Below are positions 2,507-27,854 of a stretch of 32,007 nt of DNA, piece after piece; the stretch's first letter is position 1, and each line of letters opens with the position of its first letter. The stretch comes from Deltaproteobacteria bacterium (lineage in GTDB: Bacteria; Desulfobacterota; Binatia; Binatales; Binataceae), in assembly GCA_021799555.1 (NCBI GenBank), contig JAJZAG010000004.1, forward strand, positions 1-32,007, in the 5' to 3' direction. The notes beneath the pieces are model-generated. The model ran no database searches and had not been told where the DNA came from. It saw only the letters and a program-made list of their open reading frames with translations. Position numbers and translations under genes: made by a program.

Positions 2507-3775
2507 ATGGCTGACAATAATCATCACAGAATCGTCGTTATTGGCGGCGGTACTGCAGGACTCGCCGTAGCAGCGCGGCTTAGACGCGCTGTCGATTGCG
2601 ATCTGGCAATCATCGAGCCATCGGAAACCCACTTCTACCAGCCGCTTTGGACCTTGGTCGGCGCCGGCGCAGTACGAAAGGAAGCCACCGCGCGGCGCGA
2701 AGCTGACTATATCGCGCCAGGAGCGAAATGGATCAAAGACCGCGTGGCGGAAGTATCGCCGCACCGCAACCATATCGTTACCGGATCGGGTGCACGCGTT
2801 TCGTACGACTTTCTGATTGTCGCGCCGGGCCTCGAACTCAATTGGGACGTGATCCCCGGCCTTCGCGAGGCCGTCCAGACCGGTGTCGTATCAACCAACT
2901 ACAGCTACAACCACACGGAGCGAACCTGGGAAATAATCCGGAGTTTTCGCGGCGGCACGGCTCTGTTCCACATGCCCGGCACGCCGATCAAATGCCCCGG
3001 CGCACCCCAAAAAATCATGTACTTGGCGGCTGACTATTTTCGCCGCAATCGGATTAGCGCCAATGTTGTATATGGGAGTGCGACCGCCTCGATCTACGGG
3101 GTCAAGGAGTACGCCGCAGTTCTCGACAAGGTCATCGCGCGCTACGGGATAGATGCGCGCTTCAAGCACGACCTCGTCGAGCTTCGACCGCAAAAGAAAG
3201 AAGCCGTGTTCGCGAAGCTGGATGACCCGGTTCAGAACCGTGTCACTATCCCCTTCGACTTGATGCACGTAGCGCCACCGCAGACAGCACCGGAGTTCAT
3301 CCGCACAAGCGAGCTTGCTCCGATCGGACGGCCGGGTCTTGGTTGGGTCGAGGTCGATCAATACACCTTGCAGCACAGACGCTTTCCAAACGTGTTCGCG
3401 TTAGGCGACGTTGCCGGCACTCCCAACGCCAAGACCGGCGCGGCAATTATGAAGCAGGCTCCGGTCGTCGCAGCCAACCTGATAGAGGTGATGAACGGAC
3501 GCGAGCCTCTGGCGCAGTATAACGGTTACGTGGCCTGCCCTATCACGACGGCATACGGTCGTCTGCTGCTGTGCGAGTTCGATTATACGGGGCAACCGAC
3601 GCCGACGATTCCGTGGATAAACACGATTGGCGAACGTTACGACACTTGGTTGCTCAAGCGTTACGGGCTGCCTTGGCTCTACTGGAACGTCATGATTCGC
3701 GGCCGTGACGTTCCCTTTCTTGGCGCGCGGGCGATCCGCGAAGCAGCGCTCGCGGCGGCCACGAGCCGCAGCTGA
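2507..3775 (+). CDS. Type II sulfide:quinone oxidoreductase-like flavoprotein
   Basis: A 422-residue two-dinucleotide-fold flavoprotein resembling the mitochondrial/bacterial type II sulfide:quinone oxidoreductases, which oxidise sulfide to a persulfide and pass electrons to quinone at the membrane. The FAD motif VIGGGTAGLAVAARL is at 11-25. The block GTPIKCPGAPQKIMYLAADY (158-177) carries the conserved active-site Cys163. The C-terminal FEFDY-like and LYWNVMIRGR segments also match the family. The second redox Cys of human SQOR lies in a GDC motif; here the position is Val302 (GDVAGTPNAKTG). Cys344 and Cys356 are other candidates. Val at this place appears in many bacterial homologues (from memory), so activity on sulfide is plausible but not secure; another quinone-linked oxidation is possible. 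The ribosome site is weak. The gene sits between an acyl-CoA dehydrogenase and a P-loop kinase, apparently co-transcribed. Confidence 0.75.
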   Translation: MADNNHHRIVVIGGGTAGLAVAARLRRAVDCDLAIIEPSETHFYQPLWTLVGAGAVRKEATARREADYIAPGAKWIKDRVAEVSPHRNHIVTGSGARVSYDFLIVAPGLELNWDVIPGLREAVQTGVVSTNYSYNHTERTWEIIRSFRGGTALFHMPGTPIKCPGAPQKIMYLAADYFRRNRISANVVYGSATASIYGVKEYAAVLDKVIARYGIDARFKHDLVELRPQKKEAVFAKLDDPVQNRVTIPFDLMHVAPPQTAPEFIRTSELAPIGRPGLGWVEVDQYTLQHRRFPNVFALGDVAGTPNAKTGAAIMKQAPVVAANLIEVMNGREPLAQYNGYVACPITTAYGRLLLCEFDYTGQPTPTIPWINTIGERYDTWLLKRYGLPWLYWNVMIRGRDVPFLGARAIREAALAAATSRS

Positions 3776-20451: not shown

Positions 20452-21231
20452 CTACTTGGACGACGTAGGCTCTGGTGAACTTTCAACCGGGAGTCCCGCC
20501 GCCATCCATTCGGGAAAGCCTTCGGCCAGTCGCCGCGCCTTGCGTCCGCTCTTGCGAAGAAGTTCGACCGCTCGATAACCAAGCAAGCAGTAGGGTCCTC
20601 GGCAATAGGCGACAACTTCCTTGCCGTTCCATGCGTCAGCGATCCGCATGTCGATTTCCGCCAGTTGGACTGATACCGCCCCGGCGATGTGCCCGGCCCG
20701 GTATTCGTCAGCCGGCCGCACGTCGATCACTACCGCGCTGCCGTCACGGATGCGTTCGAGCAGCTCGGAGCGCGTCAGTGGCTCGAGCTCGCTTGGATCG
20801 GTCATGTAAGTGCGCACGATTCGTTCGAGTTCCGCTGACCGGCTTTCCGCGACCCGGCGAATGACCCGGATCAGTTCGAACACCTCTGGTCCGGCCAGCC
20901 GATAGCGGACGTAAAGACCTTTTTTGCTTGCCTCGACTAGTCCGGCTTCGCGCAGGCGCTGCAGATGCTGCGAAACGTTGGCGACCGAAAGCCCCGATTG
21001 CCTGGAAAGAGCTTCGACGGTGCGATCTGTTTGGGCGAGAAGCTCAATCAGCTTTAGCCGCTGCTTGTTACCGGTGGCCTTCCCGACTCTGGCAAACTGC
21101 TCGAACATGCGATCTTGGACGGCGTCGGACGACTCCTCGCGGACCACGGCATTCGCCACCTCGCGCTCCGGAGCGACTCGATATCTCCTCGGGCGAAATG
21201 AGTGTTGCCCAGAGTCGGAAGGTCGTTTCAA
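20452..21231 (-). CDS. ArsR-family regulator fused to a rhodanese domain
   Basis: A two-domain protein of about 259 residues. Residues about 42-130 are an ArsR winged helix (FEQFARVG, then TVEALSRQSGLSVANVSQHLQRLREAGLV). Residues about 150-250 are a rhodanese domain with active-site loop CRGPYC (Cys210-Cys215) and the DVRPADEYRAGHIAGA signature. These are the only cysteines in the protein, so any thiol or persulfide sensing must use the rhodanese loop; the ArsR half lacks the sensing cysteines of BigR/SqrR/YgaV and the metal site of ArsR. The start is ambiguous: TTG 21231 follows GGAGG ideally, 13 bases after the pump gene stop; GTG 21159 (GGAG six bases before it) gives 235 residues. The far-upstream ORF-track start overlaps the pump. 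It is the last gene of the efflux operon and probably its regulator. Confidence 0.88.
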   Translation of the reverse strand: MKRPSDSGQHSFRPRRYRVAPEREVANAVVREESSDAVQDRMFEQFARVGKATGNKQRLKLIELLAQTDRTVEALSRQSGLSVANVSQHLQRLREAGLVEASKKGLYVRYRLAGPEVFELIRVIRRVAESRSAELERIVRTYMTDPSELEPLTRSELLERIRDGSAVVIDVRPADEYRAGHIAGAVSVQLAEIDMRIADAWNGKEVVAYCRGPYCLLGYRAVELLRKSGRKARRLAEGFPEWMAAGLPVESSPEPTSSK

Positions 21232-21244
21232 TTGACTCCTCCGG

Positions 21245-24200
21245 TCATGACCGAGCCTCGGATTTTCCGCTGTAAACAAGGTAATAGATGAGCGGAACCA
21301 CCAGCAGCGTGAAGCCGGTCGATGCAAAAATTCCAAAGATGAACGCCCATGCAAGGCCTGAAAATATCGGGTCCAGCGTGATAATCACCGAGCCCAGCAC
21401 GGCTGCGGCCGCCGTCAGCACTATCGGACGCAGCCGCACCGCACCGGCTTCGAGTATCGCCGCCTCTAGCTCAAGGCCGCGCGCAATTCCGAGCTGAATG
21501 AAATCGATCAGAATGATCGAGTTGCGCACCACTATTCCCGCCAGCGCGATCATTCCAATCATCGCGGTCGCGGTGAAGAAGGTCGGATCGGCAAAGCCGG
21601 CGATTGAGCGGTTCGTGATCAGGTTCAGGATGAAGAACCCGGGCATGATTCCGATCAGCGTCAGCGGTATCGCCGCCATGATGATCAACGACATCGCCAT
21701 CGAGCCGGTTTGCCCAACCAGTAGTATGAAAATCAGAAACAGCGCCGCAGCGAACGCGACTCCGAGATCGCGGAACACGGTCACCGTGATGTGCCACTCG
21801 CCCTCGCCGGTCCAGTTGATCGTATAACCCGGCGGCAACAAATGTGCGGTGCGCCCCTCGAGCCACAACACTTCGTTGACGGGGCTGATTCCTGCCGTGC
21901 CCGCCGTCACCATCGCGACCCTGCGCAGGTCCTTGTGAAAGATCGGTTGCTCCTGAACGGTTCGCTGGATTCTGCCAAGCTCGCCCAGCGTAACGAGCTT
22001 TCCGTCGGCGCCGCGCAACTCCACCGCCATCAATCCCGAGACCGTCGAACGCTCGGGCCTGCCCGCGCGCAACTCGATCATGAGCGGGTTCCGTTCGCTA
22101 TCGATGTGCACTGTACCGACGGCTTGCCCGCCAAGCATGATTGCAATCGTCTTGGCGGCTTGTCCGGCGGTAATCCCGTTAAGCGCGGCTTTGCGCCGGT
22201 CAAGAACAAAATCGAGTTGCGGAGCGGCGGTGACCGAGAAGTCGTCAGGCGATACGAGGCCACCGGTTTGCGAGAATATTCTTTTTAACTTGCGGCCATA
22301 GGTGAGCAGTTGACCGTATTCCGCCCCAGGCGGTCCGTAGATTTCCGCGACCACCGAAGCAAGGACGGGAGGACCGGGCGGACTCTCGACGATCTTGGCA
22401 AGCCTGACATGATCGCGCCGCGCGATTGTGTTTACTTCAGGTATCAGGCGAAGCGCGATTTCGTGCGACGACTCGAGTCGGCGTGCCTTGGGCGCAAGAT
22501 TAATCCGGATGTCGGCCTGTGAAGGTTCGCGCCGCATATAGTAGTGTCGCACCATCCCATTGAAATCGAACGGCGAATCGGTACCCACATAAGCTTCAAC
22601 GTTGCTAACCTCGGTGACCCGCGACAGAAGATTCTCGAAATCGAGTACGACCGCGTTGGTCGCTTCCAGTGGGGTTCCTTGCGGCATATCGATGACGAGG
22701 TCCAGTTCGTTCTTATTGTCGAACGGCAGCATTTTGACTGGCACTAACCCGAACACGACAAGCAGGACAGAAAATACGAGACTCGCGACAATCGCAGCCA
22801 GAAATAGGTGCGCGCGCCGGCGACTTTCCATTAACGGGCGCAAGAGCCGCGCGTATATTTCTCTCACCATACCGCCGTGATGCGCTTCGTCGGCATCGGT
22901 TGGTTCGTCGTACTCGCGTTTAAGCAGATGGAAAGCGGCCCACGGGGTAATCGTGAAGGCGACGATCAACGACATCAACATCGCCATCGGCACGTTGAAC
23001 GGCATCGGACGCATATACGGTCCCATCATGCCGGTCACGAACAGCATCGGAATGAACGCCACAATCACGGCGAAGGTCGCGAGAATCGTCGGCGGCCTGA
23101 CCTCATCGACCGCGATCAACGTTGCCTCGCGCGGAGGATTCTCCCGCAGCCTCAGGTGCCGGTGGATATTTTCAACATCAACAATCGGGTCGTCCACGAG
23201 AAGGCCAAGCGATAGAATCAGCGCAAACAGGGTAACTCGATTTATCGTGTAACCCGCCAGCAAGTTGGCGACGAGCGCGATAGAAAGCGTTACCGGCACT
23301 GCGATTGCCACCACGAAGGCTTCCCGGCCGCCGAGCGAAAATGCCAGCAGCACCACAATAACTCCTACTGCGATAAGCAATTCGCGCACCAGATCGTTGA
23401 CCTTTTCGTCAGCCGTCTCGCCGTAGTTTCGCGTGACCAGGACCTGCACATCGGCCGGTATCGCAACGCCACGGAGCGCCTCGACCTTGGCTAGCAATCC
23501 TTCAGCGACCGCCACCGCGTTGGTTCCGTGGCGTTTAGCAAACGCGATCGTAACCGCCGGATAAATCCGTCCCCGCTCACCAACCGAATTGAGCTCGAAT
23601 TGTCCCGGCTCGTTGATTAGGGTGCTGCGCGCGGGGCCGAACGAAATATTCGTATAGTCAACAGCTTCGGCTGGTCCGTCGAGCACCTTGGCTATCTGAT
23701 GCAGGTAGATCGGCCGCCCGCTACGAACCGCAACGACGATATCCTTGACCTCGCCGGCGCTGCGCAAAAATGGTCCACCCTGCACGACATACTCGCGATT
23801 ATCGCGTGCAAACCCACCTGCTGGCAGATTTACGTTCGCGCCCCGCAACGTCTGTGCGACCTCAAGAGCTGTCACGTCATGCCCGGCCATTCGCTGTGGA
23901 TCCAGTATCACCCGTACTAAGCGCGGTCGTCCGCCGACCACAAAAGATCGTCCGGTATCAGGCACCTGCTGCATACGATGCAGTATTTCGTCGGCGATCC
24001 GGCGCAGCTCGGCGTCGCCTTCGGCGGCGCTGTAAAGCGTGACCGTTACGATCGGTACATCGTCAATTCCGACTGGCTTTACGATCCATCCGGTTACGCC
24101 CGGTGGCACCGCATCGCGGTTTGATGCGAGCTTGTTGTAAATCTCGACGAGTGCTTTGGTCCTGTCATAGCCGACGCGGAAGCGCACCGTGACCATCGCC

Positions 24201-24499
24201 ATGTTCGGCTGGGACGACGAATAGATGTGCCGGACGCCGTCCATCTCCCAGAGCCGCTTCTCGAGGTTGACCGTAACGAGATTTTCAACCTCAGCCGCGC
24301 TGGCACCGGGCATCTGCACGATAATGTCCGCCATCGGTACTGAGATCTGCGGATCTTCTTCGCGTGGGGTCACCGCTAACGCAACCACACCGGCGGCTAG
24401 CGAGGCGAGCAACAATAGAATCGAGAGATTCGATCCGAGGAACAGGTCAACGATTCGCGCGGTGAAACCGAGCTCGGGCGATTTACTATTGTCGGTCAT
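21245..24499 (-). CDS. RND efflux pump permease (AcrB/hydrophobe-type)
   Basis: A 1084-residue inner-membrane RND transporter, full length, with the first helix at about 25-43, a large periplasmic part, and a second set of helices from about 555 and 880 onward. The proton-relay pair is intact in helix 4, LSLGLLVDDPIVDVEN with Asp436-Asp437. The N-terminal region TPREEDPQISVPMADI is typical of a proteobacterial branch usually found with its own adaptor and TolC genes. It would form a tripartite pump with the two genes upstream, driven by proton influx. ATG 24499 overlaps the adaptor gene by 14 bases, suggesting coupled translation. Substrate cannot be read from the sequence; the charged residues typical of CusA-type metal channels were not recognised. 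Confidence 0.93.
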   Translation of the reverse strand: MTDNSKSPELGFTARIVDLFLGSNLSILLLLASLAAGVVALAVTPREEDPQISVPMADIIVQMPGASAAEVENLVTVNLEKRLWEMDGVRHIYSSSQPNMAMVTVRFRVGYDRTKALVEIYNKLASNRDAVPPGVTGWIVKPVGIDDVPIVTVTLYSAAEGDAELRRIADEILHRMQQVPDTGRSFVVGGRPRLVRVILDPQRMAGHDVTALEVAQTLRGANVNLPAGGFARDNREYVVQGGPFLRSAGEVKDIVVAVRSGRPIYLHQIAKVLDGPAEAVDYTNISFGPARSTLINEPGQFELNSVGERGRIYPAVTIAFAKRHGTNAVAVAEGLLAKVEALRGVAIPADVQVLVTRNYGETADEKVNDLVRELLIAVGVIVVLLAFSLGGREAFVVAIAVPVTLSIALVANLLAGYTINRVTLFALILSLGLLVDDPIVDVENIHRHLRLRENPPREATLIAVDEVRPPTILATFAVIVAFIPMLFVTGMMGPYMRPMPFNVPMAMLMSLIVAFTITPWAAFHLLKREYDEPTDADEAHHGGMVREIYARLLRPLMESRRRAHLFLAAIVASLVFSVLLVVFGLVPVKMLPFDNKNELDLVIDMPQGTPLEATNAVVLDFENLLSRVTEVSNVEAYVGTDSPFDFNGMVRHYYMRREPSQADIRINLAPKARRLESSHEIALRLIPEVNTIARRDHVRLAKIVESPPGPPVLASVVAEIYGPPGAEYGQLLTYGRKLKRIFSQTGGLVSPDDFSVTAAPQLDFVLDRRKAALNGITAGQAAKTIAIMLGGQAVGTVHIDSERNPLMIELRAGRPERSTVSGLMAVELRGADGKLVTLGELGRIQRTVQEQPIFHKDLRRVAMVTAGTAGISPVNEVLWLEGRTAHLLPPGYTINWTGEGEWHITVTVFRDLGVAFAAALFLIFILLVGQTGSMAMSLIIMAAIPLTLIGIMPGFFILNLITNRSIAGFADPTFFTATAMIGMIALAGIVVRNSIILIDFIQLGIARGLELEAAILEAGAVRLRPIVLTAAAAVLGSVIITLDPIFSGLAWAFIFGIFASTGFTLLVVPLIYYLVYSGKSEARS

Positions 24500-25592
24500 T
24501 TGATCCTCGCGGCGAGGAATCTGTGATCACACGGTCGCCCGCGTTGAGACCCGCCAAAACTTCGACGCGATCATCCATCGCGCGGCCGAGCGCCACCTGG
24601 CGGACTTCCACGACGCCGCGAACAATTAGTCGGACCGTGGTGAGCTGACCAACTGACTGCACCGCATCGCGCGGGATGCTAAGAATTTTCTCCTGGCCGG
24701 CGCCAAAACTTGCGCGCGTGAACATTCCAGGCCGTAGTCGCATCCCCCTCGGCAACGGAGCCCGGACGATAAAACTGCGGCTGGCCGGGTCCGCGGCCGG
24801 AACGACTTCACTCACGCGAGTCTCAATAGTGCGCCGCTCGGAACCAACTTCGACTTGCAGCGGCATCCCCACGCTGACCTGATCGGCGAGCGCGTCCGGA
24901 ACCGTCAGCTCGACGCGGATTGCATGATTGTCGTAGAGCCGCACCAGCACCTCGCCCGGCATCGCGATATCACCCGGCTCGACCATCCTCGCAACCACGA
25001 CGCCGTCGACCGGCGAGCGAACGGTTGCGTAGGAAAGTGCGGCGCGCGCAGCTTTCACGGCGGCGCGTGCGCGAGCGACGTTGCCGATCGTCGATTGATA
25101 AGCTGAGCGGGCACTATCGAATTCGCTTTGCGTGACAGCGCTGCGTTTCAGGAGTGCCGAGTAGCGTTCATAGTCGGCAGCCGCGCGCGTAAACTCCGCT
25201 TGCGCGGCTGCCAACGCGCCTTGCGCCTGTGCTACCTGCGCCCGAACGTCAGCCGAGTCAAGCTCAACCAGGATCTGACCACGCCGTACGTGATCGCCTG
25301 CGCGTACCATAACGGCGTCGACCGTCGCACTCATGCGACTCGATGCGTCCACTGGCACGCTGGATTGGACGCTGCCGATAACTTCCCGCCGGATCGGCAC
25401 AATCTGCGCCAAGACAATCGCGGTCGGTTCATTGGAAAATTGAGCGGCCGTTTCGGCGAGTACGCCCGGCGCTATCTTCCCATATCGCAAGATCTCAGCG
25501 ACTATCACCGCCAGCAGTACCGCGCCGGCAATCGCAACCCACACTGCCCTTGCCGACGGTTGTCGAATTTCTTTCCGGAGGTTCATAGTCAT
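24486..25592 (-). CDS. RND pump membrane fusion protein (HlyD/AcrA family)
   Basis: A 368-residue periplasmic adaptor joining the RND pump to TolC. It has an N-terminal membrane anchor (about 14-36) and the lipoyl-like half DAVMVRAGDHVRRGQILVEL. An alpha-helical hairpin rich in Ala and Gln follows, then the second lipoyl half SPVDGVVVARMVEPGDIAMPG and beta-barrel and membrane-proximal domains. No lipobox Cys is present, so the anchor is a helix rather than a lipid. Its start overlaps the TolC stop (ATGA); an in-frame ATG two codons later is an alternative start. Order and overlap with its partners show one transcription unit. Confidence 0.92.
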   Translation of the reverse strand: MTMNLRKEIRQPSARAVWVAIAGAVLLAVIVAEILRYGKIAPGVLAETAAQFSNEPTAIVLAQIVPIRREVIGSVQSSVPVDASSRMSATVDAVMVRAGDHVRRGQILVELDSADVRAQVAQAQGALAAAQAEFTRAAADYERYSALLKRSAVTQSEFDSARSAYQSTIGNVARARAAVKAARAALSYATVRSPVDGVVVARMVEPGDIAMPGEVLVRLYDNHAIRVELTVPDALADQVSVGMPLQVEVGSERRTIETRVSEVVPAADPASRSFIVRAPLPRGMRLRPGMFTRASFGAGQEKILSIPRDAVQSVGQLTTVRLIVRGVVEVRQVALGRAMDDRVEVLAGLNAGDRVITDSSPRGSNDRQ

Positions 25593-26965
25593 CTACCCGC
25601 TAACTCGGAAGGCGAGCGGCCGATTGAAAGATCCAGCGCCGATCGCGCGACCAGCACCGCAATAATCGCTCGTACTTCGCCCATGTCCGCTTGCTGGCGT
25701 ACCGCCTGCGCATCGAGCACGTCGACATTGGTCGAGAGTCCGTTGCCATAGCGGTCCTCGAGAATTCGCAGCGCCTCGCTTGCGTAGCGGTGGTTGTCGC
25801 GCGCGACCTGCACATTCTTCTCCGCGGCACTCAGCGTCCGGTAGGCGCTCTCGACTTCCAGCGCGATCGCATGCCGCAGATCATTGGCGACGGTGACGGC
25901 ACGAGCCCGCCGGGCTTGGGCCGCGTCCACATTGCTCTTGGTGGCTAAGCCGTTAAACAGATTTACTTGGGCATAAGCGAAGACCGCGAAATTGTTGCCG
26001 CCGCGCGTCAGTTGTTCGGAGTCGTTCTCATACGCAGTGGCGACGCTTATCGAAGGTAGATAGTCCGCGCGCGCAATTTTTACCGCCTCTTCAGCCTGCT
26101 TGACCTGCGCAGCCGCGATCTTGATCTCAAGACGATCGGAAGCCGCCTCGGCGAGCAATTTATCAAGTGGCACGGCACCGGACGGAGCAAGGGTCTTGAG
26201 CACGCCCGGATTCCAAATCGGAGCCAAAGATTCGCTCTCGTCTCCGAGTGCATGCGCGAGCGCGGCCCAAGAAATCCTGAGCTGACTTTCGGCTACGGTC
26301 TGTTCTTCTTCGAGGCTTCCCACTGCCACGTCGCTTCGGAGCACATCAGCCTTGACGGCCTTGCCGTACGCGAACATATTGCGCGCCTGATCGAGATGGG
26401 ACCGGGCGGCATCAAGCGCGCGCTCAACGACGCCGACGCGCTGCTCGGCCAGGACAGCCGTGTAGTAGTCCTTGATTACGGCAAACGCAATTTCGTCGCG
26501 TGAGCGCGCCGCACGCCATCTTTCCGCGTCGCTGCCAAAGCGGGCCGCCCTGAACGACGCCAGCAGTCTTCCGCCCGCAAAGACCGGAACCGAAAAACGC
26601 ACTTGGCTCTGAAAGTTCGACAGCGTAGCCGGATGGTTTAGGCGGCTCAGATTAAAATCGGCTTGGCTGAATTCCTGCTGAGCAAGGAGATTTGAAAACA
26701 CCAGAACCGGATTATTGGTTTCGGTATAATTCTCAATCGCGTCCAGCCTCGGAAGCATCGCGCCGCGTGCAACTCCAATGTCCGCCTTAGCCGCATCGCT
26801 TTGAAGCGTTGCCGCCTTAAGCGTTCGATTGCGCTGCATCGCAATCTCAATCGCCTCGGCCAGCGAAATTCGCCGCCGCTGCGGCGGTGCGGCCGCAGCG
26901 CCGTTGGCCAATGCGAGAATGACTAGAATCGAGAGCGTGACTCTGACGCTCGAGAAACTGCGCAT
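25589..26965 (-). CDS. TolC-family outer-membrane efflux channel
   Basis: A 458-residue outer-membrane factor with a Sec signal peptide (hydrophobic core VTLSILVILALANGAAAA, cleavage expected shortly after) and two OEP repeats of long coiled coils. These are ISLAEAIEIAMQRNRTLKAA at the N-terminus and the related LDKLLAEAASDRLEIKIAAA after the middle. Strand-forming segments such as NNFAVFAYAQVNLFNG follow each helical half. ATG 26965, with GGAGG five bases before it, is chosen over the ORF-track start 69 bases upstream because it yields a proper signal peptide. It is 65 bases after the OsmC-like gene and provides the exit duct of the pump. Confidence 0.92.
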   Translation of the reverse strand: MRSFSSVRVTLSILVILALANGAAAAPPQRRRISLAEAIEIAMQRNRTLKAATLQSDAAKADIGVARGAMLPRLDAIENYTETNNPVLVFSNLLAQQEFSQADFNLSRLNHPATLSNFQSQVRFSVPVFAGGRLLASFRAARFGSDAERWRAARSRDEIAFAVIKDYYTAVLAEQRVGVVERALDAARSHLDQARNMFAYGKAVKADVLRSDVAVGSLEEEQTVAESQLRISWAALAHALGDESESLAPIWNPGVLKTLAPSGAVPLDKLLAEAASDRLEIKIAAAQVKQAEEAVKIARADYLPSISVATAYENDSEQLTRGGNNFAVFAYAQVNLFNGLATKSNVDAAQARRARAVTVANDLRHAIALEVESAYRTLSAAEKNVQVARDNHRYASEALRILEDRYGNGLSTNVDVLDAQAVRQQADMGEVRAIIAVLVARSALDLSIGRSPSELAGR

Positions 26966-27030
26966 TACAACCTCCTCTCGACCCCCCGCACTGATCCCGT
27001 TTGGCACGCGGCTGGGCCTTTCCGCACGGT

Positions 27031-27486
27031 TCAATGCTGGCTTGATGGACGGACCACCGACACCGTCGGTTCAAGAAGCGTCGCCGCCCGCAATGACGCG
27101 GTGATGAGACAGGATTTCTCGGCCTTCTCAAGCAGGCGCGCGCCTCGCTCGGAATCAGCTGCCGCATCAAGTTCAAGCCGCGGCCGCAACACAAACCTGG
27201 TGAAGCGCGTTACGCCCTCGACGCGCTCGAGCAAGCCTTCGGCCTCACAGTCCAGCCTGATCCAATCAAACTTCGAGGCTCGCGCGACCGCGCGAAACGT
27301 CAGGATGAAACAACCGATCACCGATGCAGTGATCAACGATTCGGGCGACCATAAGTCGCCGGCACCCCCGAATTCCACGGGACTCGCGGACAGCAGATCG
27401 GGAAGGCCTTCAGACGAAAGCTTCACAGCACCATTGGGACCGCCTTCGGCGTTGACGCGATAGTGATGCGGCAGTGGGATCATCAC
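27031..27486 (-). CDS. OsmC/Ohr-like protein
   Basis: A 151-residue protein of the OsmC fold. Family members reduce organic or fatty-acid hydroperoxides with a Cys pair. Cys59 lies in the N-terminal helix SLITASVIGCFILTF and Cys126 in KAEKSCLITASL, the two positions of the peroxidatic and resolving cysteines. The N-terminal strand region GLPDLLSASPVEFGGAGD ahead of SPESLI also matches. GGAGGA six bases before the ATG supports the start. It sits second in the efflux operon, between the DUF2892 gene and TolC. A thiol-based oxidoreductase in a putative sulfur-responsive operon suggests it deals with peroxides or persulfides, but the substrate is unknown. Confidence 0.8.
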   Translation of the reverse strand: MMIPLPHHYRVNAEGGPNGAVKLSSEGLPDLLSASPVEFGGAGDLWSPESLITASVIGCFILTFRAVARASKFDWIRLDCEAEGLLERVEGVTRFTRFVLRPRLELDAAADSERGARLLEKAEKSCLITASLRAATLLEPTVSVVRPSSQH

Positions 27487-27544
27487 TTGTCCTCCAGATG
27501 CGGCTGATGTGGGTCGATGGAGCTACGCCCGAACGGAATACAGG

Positions 27545-27802
27545 CTATCGCAGCAGCGGTGATGATTTGTCGATCGCACCGACGCTCGAGACGTCCTTGG
27601 AGGCACTCCTCTGCGGCGAGCCGACTCCGAAGTGACGAAGAATCATTTCGGCCGGGCAGAAGCCCGTAAGCGCCGACTGAAACAGATTGATCCCGACGAA
27701 CAGCGTCAGCAGCAACCAGTATCCGCTTACGAAGTATCCCAGCGCCAAGCTGATAACTACGAGGCTTCCTGCGATTAGACGGACCGATCGTTCGATTGAC
27801 AT
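27545..27802 (-). CDS. DUF2892 (YgaP-like) inner-membrane protein
   Basis: An 85-residue protein with one hydrophobic hairpin (about 8-45) of the DUF2892 type, marked by IERSVRLIAG at the start and ALTGFCPAEMIL after the second helix. In E. coli YgaP this module forms the membrane part of a rhodanese protein; here it stands alone, with the rhodanese fused to ArsR at the far end of the operon. ATG 27802, with GGGGAG seven bases before it, is preferred to the ORF-track start nine codons earlier. It is the first gene of the efflux operon, 58 bases ahead of the OsmC-like gene. The single Cys of the GFCP motif could accept sulfane sulfur (inference). Confidence 0.8.
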   Translation of the reverse strand: MSIERSVRLIAGSLVVISLALGYFVSGYWLLLTLFVGINLFQSALTGFCPAEMILRHFGVGSPQRSASKDVSSVGAIDKSSPLLR

Positions 27803-27831
27803 TGCCGTTCTCCCCGTTAAAGTATTCAAGC

Positions 27832-27854
27832 GATTAATTGAACATTAACCAATC
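27832..27854. promoter_or_regulatory. 23-bp dyad, candidate operator of the efflux operon
   Basis: The stretch reads, on the minus strand, GATTnnTT, seven bases, AAnnAATC: an imperfect palindrome with eight of eleven symmetric positions paired, or nearly so. It overlaps the -10 region of the putative promoter and ends 30 bases before the DUF2892 start. AT-rich dyads of this size are typical ArsR-family sites, so the ArsR-rhodanese protein is the obvious candidate ligand. Confidence 0.45.

Follow-up and report, generated by a model that had tools for sequence, protein, structure and literature searches.

An ArsR-rhodanese fusion protein with an invariant loop cysteine pair as a candidate thiol-switch regulator of an RND efflux operon

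Where would an ArsR-type regulator sense its signal when its only cysteines lie in a fused rhodanese domain rather than in the DNA-binding half, and which genes would it control? A 32,007-nt stretch of DNA from a bacterium of the Binataceae (contig JAJZAG010000004.1), hereafter the window, raises this question through a single gene encoding an ArsR-rhodanese fusion protein.

Domain architecture of the fusion protein and its family

The open reading frame spans positions 20452–21231, as the first-pass annotation had it without giving a strand, and reads on the minus strand from a TTG codon at 21231 into a protein of 259 amino acids. Placement of the start codon is uncertain: a GGAGGAG motif lies just 5′ of this TTG, most of residues 1–28 have a pLDDT below 50 in the structure model, homologs mostly start near window residues 33–42, and an alternative ATG at 21108 corresponds to residue 42. 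The choice alters the numbering, counted here from the TTG, and not the finding, and neither start adds a cysteine. Pfam placed an HTH_5 domain (PF01022) at residues 56–100 (20932–21066; E 5.9e-11, 42.5 bits against a cut-off of 22) and a Rhodanese domain (PF00581) at residues 154–244 (20500–20772; E 7.3e-17, 62.1 bits against a cut-off of 22.2), while the ArsR/SmtB family model NF033788 scored 69.9 bits (cut-off 55), assigning the protein to this fold. In the structure model (mean pLDDT 84), the ArsR part contained helices 35–53, 56–65, 72–79 and 83–95, a wing at 99–112 and a helix at 115–131, and its structural matches included CzrA, NolR and HlyU; the structure searches found no solved structure with ArsR and rhodanese domains together. 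Residues 210–215 form the six-residue rhodanese active-site loop CRGPYC (20587–20604, minus strand), modelled between strand 205–209 and helix 216–227. As first noted, the whole protein holds just two cysteines, Cys210 and Cys215, both within this loop in VVAYCRGPYCLLGY.

The one-polypeptide architecture, initially regarded as unusual, turned out to belong to a large family across at least five phyla, with at least 585 related loci in GTDB genomes and 195 plasmid records carrying the fusion, including those of Lactobacillaceae, Rhodococcus, Sinorhizobium, Priestia and Deinococcus. The window protein has the features of this family, namely both domains, the loop C-[RG]-G-x-x-C and an operator TATTCAA-N8-TTGAATA at its target promoter. 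Other, uncharacterised ArsR-rhodanese proteins have the two domains and the invariant loop in common with it, and many have the operator, whereas the group of the window protein is distinguished by its tie to an RND pump and by a regulator gene placed last in the operon. A search of the open literature, with subscription journals outside its reach, found no characterised ArsR-rhodanese fusion.

Conservation of the rhodanese-loop cysteine pair

Both Cys210 and Cys215 were retained in all 119 homologous loci (a few of which were fetched twice), in 77 of the 77 members of the non-redundant alignment, and in 11 of 11 distant homologs from five phyla with 28–49% identity, these homologs having been drawn from related genomes, a phylum sample, GTDB genomes and plasmids. 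By contrast, the residues between the two cysteines vary in the distant homologs (PY, AY, PF, RF, KV, RL and NL). The two patterns with which GTDB genomes were searched both leave out Cys215, and one includes Cys210; since Cys215 is in neither pattern and 29 of the 77 homologs have H or W where the retrieval pattern demands Y, the invariance of Cys215 is no retrieval artefact. The invariance of the pair throughout the family likewise led to the rejection of a private mutation of the source genome. Although a single protein might hold two cysteines by chance, chance does not account for their conservation across these alignments.

The claim that the ArsR half lacks cysteine was true of the window protein but extended to only 79 of the 119 loci, the other 40 having some cysteine in that half; the commonest state in the non-redundant alignment is two cysteines in all (46/77). 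One clade of the fusion family carries a second, co-occurring cysteine pair at window positions 66 and 118 (L051, L063, L071, L100, L103, L106, L112, L113 and L119), with L098 having cysteine at 66 and not at 118. This pair does not occupy the SqrR positions and might act as an additional switch or bind a metal.

Comparison with SqrR, BigR, YgaV, SoxR and sHdrR revealed shared features, including the ArsR winged helix, a proposed two-cysteine switch and operons under their own control that contain rhodanese or sulfur genes; in Escherichia coli ygaV-ygaP, an ArsR protein is paired with a rhodanese-YgaP_TM protein. In YgaV, a SqrR/BigR homolog, C31 and C98 form the sulfide-reactive pair (PMC9774250). 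YgaV and the window protein are 32% identical over their shared part, with C31 aligned to Glu63 and C98 to Glu129, the latter match coming from an ungapped extension by eye after the aligner had split C98 off. Neither the 77 homologs of the alignment nor the 11 distant ones had a cysteine at position 63 or 129. In addition, the BigR model scored 28 bits on the window protein, against a cut-off of 155, and the operator spacing differs, ATTCAA-N8-TTGAAT (that is, ATTC-N12-GAAT) in the window family versus ATTC-N8-GAAT for SqrR. Membership in SqrR/BigR was therefore rejected because the defining winged-helix dithiol is missing, although the protein may nonetheless work like SqrR/BigR. Unlike those of SqrR, BigR and YgaV, its cysteines lie in the fused rhodanese loop, and what would be new relative to ArsR-type thiol or sulfur sensors is that the sensing site has moved into the fused domain.

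The loop also departs from that of ordinary rhodaneses. GlpE, PspE, the YgaP rhodanese and RDL2 share with it the rhodanese fold and a catalytic cysteine at loop position 1, whereas position 6, which is Cys215 in the window protein, is Arg or Thr in them; most other rhodaneses in related genomes have Arg there (CASGTR, CRVGVR, CHHGIR). RDL2, DUF442 and TST require an Arg or Thr at the loop end to cleave thiosulfate (PMC8533005). Every homolog of the fusion family that was checked has cysteine in its place, suggesting that position 6 is more suited to a resolving thiol than to thiosulfate sulfurtransferase activity. Cysteine at position 6 is not unique to the fusion family, as rhodaneses with the loop C[SA]GGxCH also have it there; three such non-family proteins were encountered in related genomes (L173, L175 and L185).

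Predicted operator and operon of the regulator

The regulator gene is the last of a minus-strand operon that opens with an 85-aa YgaP-like transmembrane protein (PF11127; 27545–27802) and continues with an OsmC-like thiol peroxidase-type protein (27031–27486), a TolC-type outer-membrane channel (25589–27034 as the longest ORF, the scanned form using an internal start at 26965), an RND periplasmic adaptor (HlyD/MFP; 24486–25592) and an RND efflux permease (ACR_tran; 21245–24499). The first-pass annotation was silent on what the regulator controls, and a predicted operator was found at the head of this, its own RND-pump operon. An inverted repeat, ATTCAA-N8-TTGAAT, stood out upstream of homologs, with the fuller form TATTCAA-N8-TTGAATA learned from relatives, and in leave-one-out scoring 85 of 114 distinct homolog upstream regions beat the best of 570 shuffles. 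A matrix built without the window scored 27.9 at 27818–27849 (GTTAATGTTCAATTAATCGCTTGAATACTTTA; core TTCAA-N8-TTGAA at 27825–27842), compared with −1.1 for the next best site in the 32-kb window and 12.8 for the best of 100 shuffles. The centre of the site lies ~31 bp before the first operon gene. The exact core pattern occurs at six places in the genome, and the five outside the window score at most 6.8 with the matrix. In the two closest relatives, which have the same gene order (L123 and L124), sites with scores of 24.2 and 20.8 stand at the operon head and none stands before the regulator gene itself; the site thus follows the head of the operon, which speaks for a genuine operator. Taking sequence evidence as the basis, the predicted operator and target assignment are well supported, although further ArsR regulators might recognise the same operator. 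No promoter on the operon strand before the first gene emerged from a sigma-70 scan; a weaker TTGACT-N16-TAATGT seen there by eye only is not claimed as a promoter.

The same pump adjoins the regulator in 10 of the 20 relative loci examined, with permeases 69–78% identical and often divergent transcription. In a tree built by a quick method, a branch with 99% support parts the window protein and its two closest relatives from the other pump-linked regulators. The pump operon seems to have two lineages of regulator, most of whose members share this kind of predicted operator. Set side by side, the pump operons of the window (20452–27849), L123 and L124 and those of L133–L142 give the impression of an exchange of regulators.

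Organic compounds are common substrates of RND pumps. Together with the catalytic cysteine that the rhodanese fold keeps, this would agree with a rhodanese that merely rides along as an enzyme or scaffold while the true inducer, a pump substrate, binds the winged-helix half. Such a passenger would hardly call for a second cysteine that is absolutely kept in a loop devoid of the Arg or Thr for thiosulfate cleavage, nor for a loop that stays constant while the target genes differ between lineages, and we consider this explanation highly improbable.

Fusion proteins are automatically annotated as 'metalloregulator ArsR/SmtB family transcription factor', which invites the alternative that the loop dithiol is a binding site for As(III), Hg(II) or Cd(II). 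Indeed, the window protein resembles SmtB, CzrA and CadC in its fold, its match to NF033788 and a long inverted-repeat operator overlapping the promoter, and genes for arsenic methylation (ArsS or ArsM) occur near some homologs. Its half-sites (TTCAA...TTGAA) differ from the TGA...TCA of the 12-2-12 repeats given for regulators of the SmtB type; the CadC operator may be closer to that of the window. Metalloregulators carry an ELCV-type cysteine box in α3 (PMC5658604) or a His/Asp metal site in α5, whereas the window protein has no cysteine in such a box and no histidine in helix 115–131, where the α5 His/Asp site would lie, so that a classical metalloregulator was rejected for want of metal-site residues. 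The window operon contains no metal genes, and its permease scored 262 bits with the heavy-metal RND model, far below the cut-off of 701. These points make metal or metalloid sensing by the loop improbable, and if the loop instead responds to sulfur or thiol stress, hundreds of proteins labelled 'metalloregulator' would be reclassified as sensors of that kind.

No classical sulfur-oxidation gene is present within the window operon. About 17 kb from the regulator, the plus strand at 2507–3775 encodes an FAD/NAD-linked oxidoreductase resembling type III sulfide:quinone reductase, whose match to NF049943 (217 bits) is below the cut-off of 525.

Predicted operators and gene neighbors of distant homologs

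To carry the operator across phyla, the same matrix was run on distant plasmid loci absent from its training set. Sites stand 22–40 bp ahead of regulator or thioredoxin genes in Lactiplantibacillus plantarum and Levilactobacillus brevis and ahead of the DsbA gene in Ligilactobacillus salivarius. In Priestia they precede YtxJ (bacilliredoxin-type), trxA and further redox genes, and in Deinococcus a metallo-hydrolase gene heading an operon that ends in the regulator. Each of these sites beats the largest of 200 shuffles of its own locus. The operator is not universal, because the Rhodococcus, Nonomuraea, Acidiphilium and Salinibacter loci had no strong site with this matrix. On the Priestia aryabhattai plasmid p-LAD5 (L193), an 8.6-kb stretch contains at least five strong sites that lie ahead of or close to the genes for trxA, YtxJ, a zinc-binding dehydrogenase and two oxidoreductases (SDR and FAD), an arrangement that looks like a thiol-stress regulon carried by a plasmid. 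The operator and regulon prediction could be tested in common laboratory bacteria.

Near other homologs, we found genes for DsrE, SQR/FCSD-like proteins, rhodanese, VTT-rhodanese, TauE-like proteins, cysteine desulfurase and a metallo-hydrolase-rhodanese fusion. The idea of an exclusively sulfur-related context was weakened by the commonest single immediate neighbor in the genome sample, a fatty-acid hydroxylase (28/147), which is no sulfur gene; given this neighbor and the ArsS and ArsM genes, the context is in good part, and not exclusively, thiol or sulfur. The fatty-acid hydroxylase gene is often transcribed away from the regulator gene, with the operator between the two. In L037, L045, L055, L069, L126 and similar loci, the homologs have arsenosugar genes (ArsS radical SAM, ArsM methyltransferase) nearby, along with VTT-rhodanese and fatty-acid hydroxylase genes.

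The proposal of the first-pass annotation that sensing takes place in the rhodanese loop gains support from the invariant loop pair, the empty SqrR/BigR positions, and the sulfane-sulfur and thiol-redox neighbors and operators of distant homologs. We put at roughly 60% the best explanation, autorepression by a protein that detects sulfane sulfur or thiol oxidation with the dithiol of its rhodanese loop. It is favored because the loop cysteines are invariant while the residues between them vary, because positions 63 and 129 are never cysteine and loop position 6 is Cys rather than Arg, because predicted operators stand at the operon head and before redox genes in Bacillota and Deinococcus, and because sulfur genes lie near other homologs. 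It is weakened by the top-ranking fatty-acid hydroxylase and the arsenic methylation genes, by a window operon without a classical sulfur-oxidation gene, by extra ArsR-half cysteines in a third of the homologs, and by the chance that other ArsR regulators share the operator.

What we infer of the switch, namely repression, persulfide or disulfide chemistry, transmission and direction, together with an exported compound, would run as follows. A repressor, dimeric by analogy with its fold family, is predicted to bind TATTCAA-N8-TTGAATA at its own operon promoter. The signal would be read in the rhodanese domain, where Cys210 would take up sulfane sulfur or be oxidised and Cys215 would resolve the modified Cys210 into a disulfide or polysulfide bridge. 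This change could pass via helix 133–142 to the winged helix and lower DNA affinity, thereby derepressing the pump and the thiol-protection genes. The protein probably senses reactive sulfur or thiol stress and switches on the efflux-pump operon here and thioredoxin-type genes in distant relatives, its likely signal being sulfane sulfur or oxidative thiol stress, two inputs that the sequence does not separate.

A protein that is mainly a redox or electrophile sensor, with a loop pair that forms a disulfide under hydroperoxides, hypochlorite or disulfide stress and without any sulfane sulfur, would accommodate the OsmC gene of the window operon and the lactobacillar genes for thioredoxin, thioredoxin reductase and DsbA that follow the operator. 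We regard this reading as unlikely, as a rhodanese domain is specialised for accepting sulfane sulfur and as other homologs have DsrE, SQR-like, cysteine desulfurase and metallo-hydrolase-rhodanese genes beside them.

Were the rhodanese-loop dithiol sensor correct, the signal chemistry would reside inside a well-understood enzyme active site, and the RND pump operon would be explained as part of a thiol-stress response. More tentatively, and as a possibility that falls short of probable, the family may constitute a cross-phylum repressor class in which sulfur or thiol sensing has moved from the DNA-binding half to the fused rhodanese site, with a persulfide-to-disulfide switch at loop positions 1 and 6, one shared operator and a portable regulon comprising RND efflux, thioredoxin/DsbA/bacilliredoxin and sulfur oxidation.
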